Of a stretch of 64,000 nucleotides of DNA, positions 1 through 34,910 are shown piece after piece; position 1 is the first letter of the stretch, and every line of letters begins with the position of its first letter. This DNA comes from an uncultured bacterium. Lineage in GTDB: Bacteria > Cyanobacteriota > Vampirovibrionia > Gastranaerophilales > Gastranaerophilaceae. The position numbers were made by a program, and so were the translations under genes. Below the pieces are notes generated by a model. It was not told the DNA's origin and did not search any database. It worked only from the letters and a program-made list of their open reading frames with translations. The DNA lies in contig CASELF010000042.1 of the NCBI GenBank assembly GCA_949288725.1, positions 1 to 64,000 of the forward strand. Direction: 5' to 3'.

Positions 1-120
1 ATCAATACTTTCTTCAATTTGTTCCGGAGTTAGATTTTGATAAGATGAAAAAGTTACAGACTTTCTCAAATTGCTGCCTGCCATAATATAATTATATTGT
101 GCAATTGCACCAATTCTCAT
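1..120 (-). CDS. N-terminal fragment of an unknown protein (runs off the window)
   Basis: An open frame starts with ATG at 120 and runs leftward off the window edge, giving 40 codons that begin MRIGAIAQYNYIM. A strong Shine-Dalgarno (GGAGGT, 124-129 on the complementary strand) precedes the ATG at good spacing, which is the main reason to believe it. I do not recognise the family and the rest of the protein is not visible. It is divergent from the tRNA-Met gene. Confidence 0.6.
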   Translation of the reverse strand, partial: MRIGAIAQYNYIMAGSNLRKSVTFSSYQNLTPEQIEESID

Positions 121-32068: not shown

Positions 32069-33238
32069 CTATTGTTCTTCTTGGAATAGGAATTTTACAA
32101 ATATTATTGAGAAAACAGCAGGGAAGGCAGATATTACTGTCAATACAGGTGCTATACTTGTTGCTTGTGCAATAAATCCTATTATAGACATTGCGATTGC
32201 AACGATTCCCCAAGAGAATCCGTTGATAAATCCGCCTATTATACTTTTATATTGTGGCAAAACTTTTTGGGCCATGCTCATTGTTATTGGTGTTGCAAAC
32301 ATTGTTATAAATCCTATTACAGCATAGGTTATGAAAGATATTACGGGATGAGTTTTGTATGTTAGCATAAATAAAATCATCAGTGGGAATGTTGTAATCA
32401 TAGAAATATAAAATACATTTGCTGTGCCTATAATTTTTTCAAATTTAGGACTTAGCAACGAACTTATTCCGCCCAAGAAAATAAATACGAATAAGGCAAC
32501 TCCTATTTGAAATTTTGAATAACCCATGGATTTCCAAAGGAATGGCAAAAGAATTGAACAAGATGTTGTAACAAGTGTTTTTAGAACTGCAATAACATTT
32601 AGGATATTTAATTTTCTGTTTGTTAAAATATCAATGAATGCTTGTTTAAGTTTTATATTCATTGGCGGGGTTTTTATATTAGAAAATTTCGGAACGCATG
32701 AAAACATACATAAAGCACAAATAATACCAATGATAGATAAAAACGGCATTTTATTGAGTCCGAAATATTGTGCAATAGCAGATGATAACAATGGTCCCAT
32801 TGCATAACCTAAAGACCCGCAAGCAATAAATGTTCCCATATTTTTAACAGTATCAGTGGTTGAAAATTTTACAACAAAACCTAAAGATTGCGGGTGAAAA
32901 AGGCTAGAACCTAAACTCCCAAGGATAATGCACAATAGCATAATGCTAATATGAGAAGATATCGGAACTAATGAAATAAAAATAGAAGTAAACAGTAATC
33001 CCCAAAATATAAAGGCTCTTTTTTTCATAATGTCGGCAAAAAATCCGAAATAAGGCTGCAACAAAGATGAAAAAATATGTGAGCAACTTAGTATAATTGT
33101 TGCAACAGGCATTGAAATTTTAATTTGCTCAGCGATGAACGGCATAATCGGATTTAATAAACCAGTATAAATGTCATTTACAAAGTGAGCACTTCGAAGC
33201 CAAATCTGGGTTTTTCTATTTTTATTATCATCAGTCAT
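32069..33238 (-). CDS. MFS transporter, fosmidomycin-resistance (Fsr)-like
   Basis: 389 residues, about 12 membrane helices. The N-terminal RSAHFVNDIYTGLLNPIMPFIAEQ and SSLLQPYFGFFADIMKKR match Fsr-type exporters. Substrate not deducible. It starts at 33238, 62 bases from the promoter/operator of the divergent DtxR-type regulator, so it is probably under the same metal-dependent control; a metal-linked role (for example metallophore or toxic compound efflux) is inference only. Confidence 0.88.
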   Translation of the reverse strand: MTDDNKNRKTQIWLRSAHFVNDIYTGLLNPIMPFIAEQIKISMPVATIILSCSHIFSSLLQPYFGFFADIMKKRAFIFWGLLFTSIFISLVPISSHISIMLLCIILGSLGSSLFHPQSLGFVVKFSTTDTVKNMGTFIACGSLGYAMGPLLSSAIAQYFGLNKMPFLSIIGIICALCMFSCVPKFSNIKTPPMNIKLKQAFIDILTNRKLNILNVIAVLKTLVTTSCSILLPFLWKSMGYSKFQIGVALFVFIFLGGISSLLSPKFEKIIGTANVFYISMITTFPLMILFMLTYKTHPVISFITYAVIGFITMFATPITMSMAQKVLPQYKSIIGGFINGFSWGIVAIAMSIIGFIAQATSIAPVLTVISAFPAVFSIIFVKFLFQEEQ

Positions 33239-33299
33239 AGTACCATAATCTCACTAACAATAAGAAAAATCAAACGTTGAAACAGTGAAAAAATATACC

Positions 33300-33328
33300 T
33301 TGACAAAGTGTTAGGCATGCCTTACAAT
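33300..33328 (+). promoter_or_regulatory. dtxR-type gene promoter with embedded 22-bp operator
   Basis: A textbook promoter: TTGACA (33300-33305), exactly 17 bases, TACAAT (33323-33328). The spacer and -10 are covered by an imperfect palindrome at 33307-33328, half-sites AGTGTTAG and CTTACAAT around GCATGC. TTAGG/CCTTA half-sites resemble DtxR/IdeR-family boxes. The position would block polymerase, suggesting autorepression by the product of the next gene. Confidence 0.85.
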
Positions 33329-33343
33329 AGTTTAGGAGGTTAT

Positions 33344-33796
33344 ATGAATCAAATTTCAGATACATTATCTTCAGGATTAGAAGATTATATTGAGGCAATA
33401 TATGTTGCGCATGTAAACAAAACATCTTTAAAGGGAGCGGAACTTGCAAGGAAATTAAATGTTTCAAGAGCTTCTGTATCTGAAGCATTGTCAAAACTTG
33501 TTGCCAAAAAATTGATAACATATAACAGTTATGAATCAATTACTTTGACAAAAGAGGGGATAGAACTTGCTAAAGTTGTATATAATAAGCATCATATATT
33601 ACAGAATTTTTTTGAGCAGATTTTAGATATTTCCTCTAAGGAAGCAGGTGAGAATGCTTGCAAAATTGAACATATAATTTCTCAAAACATATTAAACAAA
33701 ATGGTAGAATTTAGCGAATTCTGTCAAAAACATGAAAGTTTTATTACCGAGTTTAAGAAGGAAGTTACCCAAAAATGCCACAAATATCATCAATAG
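33344..33796 (+). CDS. DtxR/MntR-family metal-dependent regulator
   Basis: 150 residues from ATG 33344, which has a near-perfect TAGGAGGT; the open frame continues 12 codons upstream through the operator, so the shorter start is right. SSGLEDYIEAIYVAHVNKTSLKGAELARKLNVSRASVSEALSKLVAKKLITYNSYESITLTKEG is the winged helix typical of DtxR/MntR, followed by the helical dimerisation domain with His/Glu/Cys candidates for metal binding (NKHHILQNFFEQIL, EAGENACKIEHIIS). MntR-like in length, lacking an SH3 domain. Metal (Mn or Fe) not certain. Overlaps the next gene by 22 bases. Confidence 0.92.
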   Translation: MNQISDTLSSGLEDYIEAIYVAHVNKTSLKGAELARKLNVSRASVSEALSKLVAKKLITYNSYESITLTKEGIELAKVVYNKHHILQNFFEQILDISSKEAGENACKIEHIISQNILNKMVEFSEFCQKHESFITEFKKEVTQKCHKYHQ

Positions 33797-34830
33797 GAAA
33801 ATTTCTTGACCAACCTATTTTAACTGCGAAATTAAACAAGAATATGCCTGCAATTTTAACAGGCGGTTCCGCATTATTTCTTGCTAATCAATTACATAAA
33901 ACTCCAGAGGATGAACGGTTCAGAAGCGGTTTAAAATCATTAATCGTCCTTGGGACTACAGGGATTGCAGCGCTTAATGCTTCAAAAATTGCTGCATATA
34001 TTACTAAAAAAGAAACGACAAAGCCTTTTGCACAAATTATTAAAACTAATGAAAAATTAGTTGAAGAATATCTTAAAAACAACACTTTTAGCAAGGAAAT
34101 CAGTAAAATTTTAGAAAAAGCTAAAAATAAAGTATTATCAATTAAAGAAATTGATAAATTAAATATTCCTGAACATAAGACTTTTTTAGATAAATTAATT
34201 CCGCCGCCTGAAAATATTCAAGCAAAGGATTTGTTTAAAGAAATCGGCTGGCTTTCAATATATGGTGCAATTCCTGTGGCTGGTGGAATTGTTGGTGGAA
34301 TTGTTGCCGATAGAATGACTGAAAGAAATTGGAAAAAGCAGATTCCAAATAAAATTAATGAAGGTATTTATCAGTATTTGGCAAATATCTTTATGTGTAA
34401 TATTGGAGCAGGTGCTGCACTTGCTATTTTAGAAAAATGCAATATAAAATCTAAGGCTGCAAGATGTGTTGGAATGACAGCAGGTATAATTTTGACAGGT
34501 GTAATTGGTGGAAGTGCAATTGCAAATTATATTGGTAACAAAATTATAAATCCGTTGCTTTTGAAAAATCATAAAAACGAAACTCGAACGCCTGAACTTT
34601 TAGATATCGGACTTCATTCGGATGATATTGCAACGGTGTCTTTGTTATCGGGGTTAAAATGGATAGAACCATCATTACCTTTATTGTATTCAATATCAGG
34701 ATATAGAGCAGGAGTCGGGTACAGAAACGACAAAGTCCAATGTAAAAAACTTGATGAACGTGATAAAAATAAACATTCTAATAATGTTAAGAATGAACAG
34801 CAGACTCATTTTTTACGACAAAAGTGTTAG
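33775..34830 (+). CDS. Unknown membrane protein coupled to the DtxR-type regulator
   Basis: 351 residues, no family recognised. Hydrophobic segments: about 27-38, 53-72, 157-177 (GWLSIYGAIPVAGGIVGGIVAD, glycine-rich), 203-220 (YLANIFMCNIGAGAALAIL), 231-256 (CVGMTAGIILTGVIGGSAIANYIG) and about 285-310. Between the first and second pairs is a charged helical loop (about 75-150). The tail is polar, with Cys and His (KVQCKKLDERDKNKHSN ... RQKC). It starts inside the regulator gene, so the two are translationally coupled; a role in metal homeostasis is the obvious guess but only a guess. GGAAG serves as the ribosome site. Confidence 0.8.
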   Translation: MPQISSIGKFLDQPILTAKLNKNMPAILTGGSALFLANQLHKTPEDERFRSGLKSLIVLGTTGIAALNASKIAAYITKKETTKPFAQIIKTNEKLVEEYLKNNTFSKEISKILEKAKNKVLSIKEIDKLNIPEHKTFLDKLIPPPENIQAKDLFKEIGWLSIYGAIPVAGGIVGGIVADRMTERNWKKQIPNKINEGIYQYLANIFMCNIGAGAALAILEKCNIKSKAARCVGMTAGIILTGVIGGSAIANYIGNKIINPLLLKNHKNETRTPELLDIGLHSDDIATVSLLSGLKWIEPSLPLLYSISGYRAGVGYRNDKVQCKKLDERDKNKHSNNVKNEQQTHFLRQKC

Positions 34831-34844
34831 GCATATCTAACACT
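34823..34844. promoter_or_regulatory. Second copy of the DtxR-type palindrome
   Basis: AGTGTTAG and CTAACACT flank GCATAT: a perfect 8-bp half-site palindrome, sharing the first 12 bases with the site at 33307-33318. It covers the TAG stop of the preceding gene (34828-34830) and lies 40 bases before its terminator. No promoter is obvious around it on either strand. Confidence 0.75.
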
Positions 34845-34884
34845 GCCTTATTTTACATTATCCGAAACTACTGTACACAAATTC

Positions 34885-34910
34885 AAGGCGGTTAACCGCC
34901 TTTTTCCTTT
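34885..34910 (+). terminator. Terminator of the dtxR-type operon
   Basis: AAGGCGG and CCGCCTT around TTAA, followed by TTTCCTTTTTTT. Confidence 0.88.

Follow-up and report, generated by a model that had tools for sequence, protein, structure and literature searches.

The DtxR/IdeR box has the core TTAGG-TTAG-CCTAA within the sequence TTAGGTTAGCCTAACCTAA (PMC7762939), and the mntH site of Bacillus subtilis is TTTGCCTTAAGGAAAC (PMC9861239). The members of the DtxR family described so far that lack the SH3-like domain are not Fe2+-responsive in vivo (review, PMC7762939). In Porphyromonas, Prevotella and Bacteroides, the flavodoxin-DUF2023 operon ranks among the genes with the strongest induction under iron starvation. 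DUF2023 and the flavodoxin gene fldA are raised 48- to 598-fold in three Bacteroidetes under these conditions, and ICMT-family genes are raised as well (PMC10434189). Small RNAs derived from 3' ends are reported in cyanobacteria (PMC8136909).

The window, which is the whole stretch of 64,000 nucleotides that was analysed, is contig C42 of a genome of the Gastranaerophilales (Melainabacteria), a gut relative of cyanobacteria whose nearest relatives carry the same name. A search of the open-access literature for DtxR in Gastranaerophilales found nothing. The window encodes a DtxR/MntR-family regulator, REG, and a palindrome, O1, overlaps the promoter of its gene. Judged from sequence, O1 can be taken with good confidence as the predicted operator of an autorepressing switch of this family, most likely one that responds to Fe2+. 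The features around REG are the following.

32069-33238, minus strand: divergent MFS transporter gene (PF07690).
33300-33328, plus strand: sigma-70-type promoter, with -35 TTGACA (33300-33305), a 17-nt spacer and -10 TACAAT (33323-33328); 11 of 12 consensus matches.
33309-33326, no strand: O1, the predicted operator TGTTAGG-CATG-CCTTACA, overlapping the spacer and the -10.
33334-33339, plus strand: ribosome-binding site AGGAGG of REG, from the sequence.
33344-33796, plus strand: REG, DtxR/MntR-family metalloregulator of 150 aa, assigned from PF01325 and PF02742, alignment A2 and relatives in the PDB.
33775-34830, plus strand: TM351, an all-helical, probably membrane protein and operon partner of REG; its start overlaps the end of REG.

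By direct reading, positions 33300-33328 are TTGACA AAGTGTTAGGCATGCCT TACAAT. The sequence-only reading had called this promoter perfect; its 17-base spacer stands, and the adjective is one base too strong. The 22-base imperfect palindrome that it described as filling the spacer and the -10 is present: 9 of the 11 positions of AGTGTTAGGCATGCCTTACAAT (33307-33328) pair, and the genome contains no second copy of this 22-mer. The palindrome is strongest in the 18-bp core of O1, TGTTAGGCATGCCTTACA (33309-33326), in which 8 of 9 positions pair. When the 105-bp intergenic region was dinucleotide-shuffled 2000 times, a 22-nt palindrome of the same quality turned up in 38 shuffles and a promoter of the same quality in 11, and the two never occurred together. 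The palindrome alone is therefore weak evidence, and it is conservation that provides the proof of an operator. As a separate observation, nine related loci (L074, L087, L090, L092, L096, L098, L102, L104 and L105) carry a second, partial box (e.g. TTTGTAAGGCAAGCTTGACA) directly upstream of O1, which overlaps the -35 and forms a tandem pair with O1, about 21 bp apart.

The assignment of the gene to the DtxR/MntR type was borne out. REG has the N-terminal winged helix-turn-helix domain PF01325 (42.7 bits) and the C-terminal metal-binding and dimerisation domain PF02742 (57.1 bits), both above the Pfam cut-off, and its relatives in the PDB are SloR, MntR, ScaR, IdeR and DtxR. The ligand positions D14, E17, H83, C106, E109 and H110 are invariant or nearly so in an alignment (A2) that spans relatives from Gastranaerophilales and Desulfobulbaceae. 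That alignment includes MntR and DtxR reference rows, which we take to represent the two proteins. The ligand set is mixed: D14 and E17 correspond to the Asp and Glu of MntR (positions 8 and 11), and C106 corresponds to Cys102 of DtxR, where MntR has Glu99. REG ends at 150 aa with no further Pfam domain and has no SH3-like domain, the DtxR row extending far beyond it. The best NCBIfam and PDB matches of REG are MntR and SloR, and its scores against the NCBIfam MntR equivalogs (73.4 and 71.9 bits) are below the respective cut-offs of 153 and 138 bits.

REG orthologues were gathered from 80 genome loci and 59 whole genomes, and 61 non-redundant promoters were aligned at the -35. The -35 has an information content of 1.98 bits per base, the half-sites TGTTAGG and CCTTACA have 1.87 and 1.94, respectively, and the final two bases of the -10 have 1.76. 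The four centre bases of the box reach 1.08, the upstream flank 0.27 and the downstream flank 0.29. An exact TTGACA-17-TACAAT promoter with the box in the same register is found in 56 of 63 orthologous promoters, amid scrambled flanks, and about 60 related genomes keep the box with hardly a letter changed. As expected of an autorepressor, the box thus lies over the -35/-10 region of the regulator's own gene in the orthologues. A lack of conservation of the palindrome in these promoters, the outcome that the earlier note had named as speaking against its claim, is decisively excluded. The box is also near unique in each genome. Of 36 same-genus genomes, 33 have perfect matches to TGTWAGG-N4-CCTWACA, mostly one or two apiece, and a reversed-pattern control gave none in the same 36. 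Boxes with two mismatches in the window's own genome were not above this control and were left out of the interpretation; boxes with one mismatch at other genes (e.g. G020:C78 and G026:C26) were about as frequent as control matches and were not interpreted either.

The box is tied to genes and not to a position. In most loci it stands ahead of REG-TM351, and it moves with TM351 where the gene order differs: in L094, L101, L103 and L111, TM351 is upstream of REG and two tandem boxes precede TM351, and in G048 (L160) a box stands ahead of a lone TM351 homologue away from REG. The window contains a further box, at a DUF2023 gene.

135-152, no strand: third box, TGTAAGGTGAACCTAACA, with 0 mismatches, 14 bp upstream of the DUF2023 gene.
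1-120, minus strand: 5' part of a DUF2023 gene (PF09633) that runs off the contig end, with the rest on contig C98.

A TTGACA-17-TAATAT promoter on the minus strand (187-159) lies immediately upstream of this third box. An orthologue of the gene (L155:3539-3991) matches PF09633 at 1.3e-38, and the fragment on C98 (G000:C98:16756-16899) covers profile positions 52-100. The splitting of the gene over C42 and C98 suggests that the two contigs join there. DUF2023 genes have the same box arrangement as in the window in G005, G009, G024, G032 and G052. In G017 and G035 the box differs by one mismatch, and L088 and L099 have two boxes there. A flavodoxin gene stands behind the box-marked DUF2023 in G052 only, and about half of the DUF2023 genes of the genus have no upstream box. 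In G057, an ICMT-family methyltransferase gene has a box of its own (L161:2362-2949, box at 2981). An ICMT-family gene, recognized by sequence resemblance only, also lies behind TM351 in an operon at L084:6427-7053. On sequence grounds, the box-marked set of REG, TM351 and DUF2023 is an unusually small regulon. A search of related genomes, which had been proposed earlier, did find the site upstream of orthologues; none of the known metal importers carried it, so that the customary evidence for an iron regulon is lacking. Two importers considered as box targets are absent from the sampled genomes of the genus: FeoB_C was not found in 13 sampled genomes, and Nramp (mntH), the target by which an MntR would be recognized, was not found in 13 of 13, with a working positive control. 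The route of iron and manganese uptake in these 13 genomes is thus left unexplained by FeoB_C and Nramp.

The autoregulated metal switch put forward in the sequence-only reading survives in part. The operator over the regulator's own spacer and -10, which predicts autorepression, is conserved, and the divergent MFS gene had to be dropped as its controlled partner. The distance of about 62 bases noted between the start of the MFS gene (33238) and the -35 (33300) is correct. Among about 70 related loci, however, the MFS gene adjoins REG only in the window and its closest relatives, L036 and L038, and by this comparison it is not a conserved member of the regulon. A single half-site, CTCACTAACA (33250-33259; TGTTAG on the minus strand), is seen between the MFS start and the promoter. 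It is shared with L036 and L038 and perhaps has a weak influence on the MFS gene.

The protein family, the overlap of promoter and box with its conservation, the near-uniqueness of the box and the genes that it marks were read directly. We infer that REG binds O1 and that it represses rather than activates. When the metal, most likely Fe2+, is plentiful, a metal-loaded REG dimer would occupy TGTTAGG-N4-CCTTACA, cover the spacer and the -10, and so exclude RNA polymerase from REG's own promoter. When the metal is scarce, REG would leave and the REG-TM351 operon would be transcribed, as would DUF2023 (once with flavodoxin) in many relatives. Repression is supported by the positions of the boxes, which overlap the -10 at O1 and lie just downstream of the DUF2023 promoter in the window.

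The main effector of the switch is presumably TM351; that it moves metal, perhaps as an uptake system, is a guess that fits its features and the lack of FeoB_C and Nramp. This protein of 351 aa is encoded next to REG in most related loci, and its sequence is conserved (alignment A1). Its structural model, which has high confidence for most of the chain (pLDDT 84.5), contains only helices. At least four segments are strongly hydrophobic, and the protein has an invariant H-x-D-D motif (H281, D283 and D284). No convincing Pfam match and no PDB sequence match were found for TM351. Fold searches gave nothing above noise: Foldseek E-values were above 0.1, and the best VIA Z-score of 7.6 is within the noise for helical bundles. 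Most genomes also contain paralogues of about 250 aa that resemble the C-terminal half of TM351 (e.g. G000:C56:44733-45125). TM351 represents a new family of probable membrane proteins, which accompanies a metal repressor throughout the order. If it imports metal, it would help explain the supply of iron or manganese in genomes without FeoB and Nramp.

The end of the operon has a conserved element of its own.

34804-34880, plus strand: conserved 3' element of 77 nt, with a T-rich run, a box-like hairpin, CCTTATTTTACA and ACTGTACAC, from alignments A3 and A4.
34825-34842, no strand: O2, the box-like palindrome TGTTAGGCATATCTAACA, spanning the stop codon of TM351.
34885-34902, plus strand: intrinsic terminator AAGGCGGTTAACCGCCTT, then T-rich sequence, at the operon end.

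A model of the 3' element (R1) matches 40 of 46 genus genomes, with a single match per genome except for one weak echo of O1, and the sister lineages do not have the element. It sits directly after REG where TM351 is absent (L039, L058, L059, L060, L062, L063 and L065) and is kept where TM351 ends earlier (L048-L050, L053, L066, L068, L070, L072 and L078). The element is therefore not a coding artefact, a by-product of the TM351 tail -HFLRxKC. O2 could be a second REG-binding site at the 3' end of the operon that works together with O1 through DNA looping or by serving as a roadblock, a reading that we consider possible and somewhat doubtful. Its half-site TGTTAGG and its spacing are the same as in O1, and TTAGG..CTAA is nearly invariant without covariation between the hairpin arms, as expected of a protein site. 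However, the right half is without its second C in most genomes, and no promoter fits around O2, where the spacing of minus-strand candidate hexamers, judged by eye, varies between loci. Auxiliary sites so far downstream are also unusual in the DtxR/MntR family.

The absence of arm covariation is consistent with a protein-binding site, and the predicted fold, with its hairpin, open stretch and terminator, is consistent with a small RNA. An RNA hairpin is predicted at 34823-34844 (fold z -4.7). It is tentatively conceivable that the repressor mRNA ends in a metal-controlled regulatory RNA, in which a copy of the repressor's DNA box would form the hairpin, followed by the open stretch and the terminator. 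The conserved open stretch could then pair with ribosome-binding sites (CCUUAUUUUAC). In this reading the element, released as a small RNA, would repress iron-using genes and be the main output of the switch in place of a protein, a role like that of RyhB and IsaR1 placed on the repressor's own mRNA. This we regard as unlikely. The element is present in single copy throughout most of the genus, is retained right behind REG in loci without TM351 and has the predicted hairpin, open region and terminator, and small RNAs from 3' ends do have the cyanobacterial precedent cited above. Covariation, on the other hand, gives the hairpin arms no support, and the sister lineages do without the element. 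A search for antisense targets of the ACTGTACA stretch returned almost exclusively the element itself and no seed target, and a search for known RNA families gave only a weak miRNA match, which we attribute to chance. If true, the switch would have this regulatory RNA as its main conserved product in G020, G026 and G033, in which TM351 and DUF2023 were not found; FeoB and Nramp are likewise missing from the sampled genomes of this lineage.

Iron is the likelier metal for the switch at O1, given the strong induction of DUF2023-flavodoxin in iron-starved Bacteroidetes. C106 at the position of DtxR Cys102 and the box at the ICMT gene in G057 are also in favor of iron. Against iron, REG lacks the SH3 domain and keeps the MntR Asp and Glu (D14 and E17), and by these sequence features manganese is possible. 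Since the SH3-less members described so far do not respond to Fe2+ in vivo, the REG protein alone does not settle the metal. The same switch could thus be of the MntR type, with REG sensing Mn2+ and TM351 a Mn2+ transporter or chaperone. We give this reading a rather low probability: the missing SH3 domain, the MntR and SloR top matches and the residues at MntR positions 8 and 11 are in its favor, but REG has Cys at MntR position 99, as in DtxR, the core of the box is of the DtxR type rather than that of the B. subtilis mntH site, and the second target, DUF2023-flavodoxin, is a marker of iron starvation. The weakest alternative, a chance palindrome inside an ordinary promoter, appeals to the AT-rich sequence and to the recurrence of the palindrome alone in shuffles, and has a negligible probability given the conservation over 61 promoters with scrambled flanks, the lack of control matches in the genus and the shuffle test, which rule it out.

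In comparison with DtxR and IdeR, the core of O1, TTAGG-N4-CCTTA, has the classic geometry TTAGG-N4-CCTAA with one base changed in the right half. The earlier remark that the operator differs from the canonical ones therefore applies to this base and to the extra TG/CA flanks, and not to the core geometry. REG shares both DtxR Pfam domains and the Cys at DtxR Cys102, and the operator is likewise placed to exclude RNA polymerase. The system differs in that REG has no SH3-like domain, O1 is a single 18-bp palindrome with TG/CA flanks, and the box marks REG and about one other locus as opposed to a global uptake regulon. REG resembles MntR of B. subtilis and Escherichia coli in its two-domain architecture of 140-150 aa and in the Asp/Glu/His/Glu/His ligand positions. 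In contrast to MntR, it has Cys at position 99, a different box and a score far below the MntR equivalog cut-offs, and Nramp, the usual MntR target, is absent from the sampled genomes.

DUF2023, once with flavodoxin, would be induced when metal is scarce, as in the Bacteroidetes fldA-DUF2023 operon (PG1857-PG1858 and BT0516-BT0517); the difference is that here it carries a DtxR-type box, which ties a domain of unknown function to that box. If the 3' element is a small RNA, it would resemble RyhB and IsaR1 in being made when iron is scarce. RyhB and cyanobacterial IsaR1 are transcribed from their own Fur-controlled promoters, whereas this RNA would be the 3' end of a DtxR-family mRNA. The proposed mechanism is the textbook one for the DtxR/MntR family and is ordinary. 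The novelty lies in the regulon and in the lineage that carries it, in the DtxR-type box at DUF2023, in TM351 as a family and in the element at the 3' end, and the regulon highlights the TM351 family and the single-copy 3' RNA/DNA element as two testable subjects.
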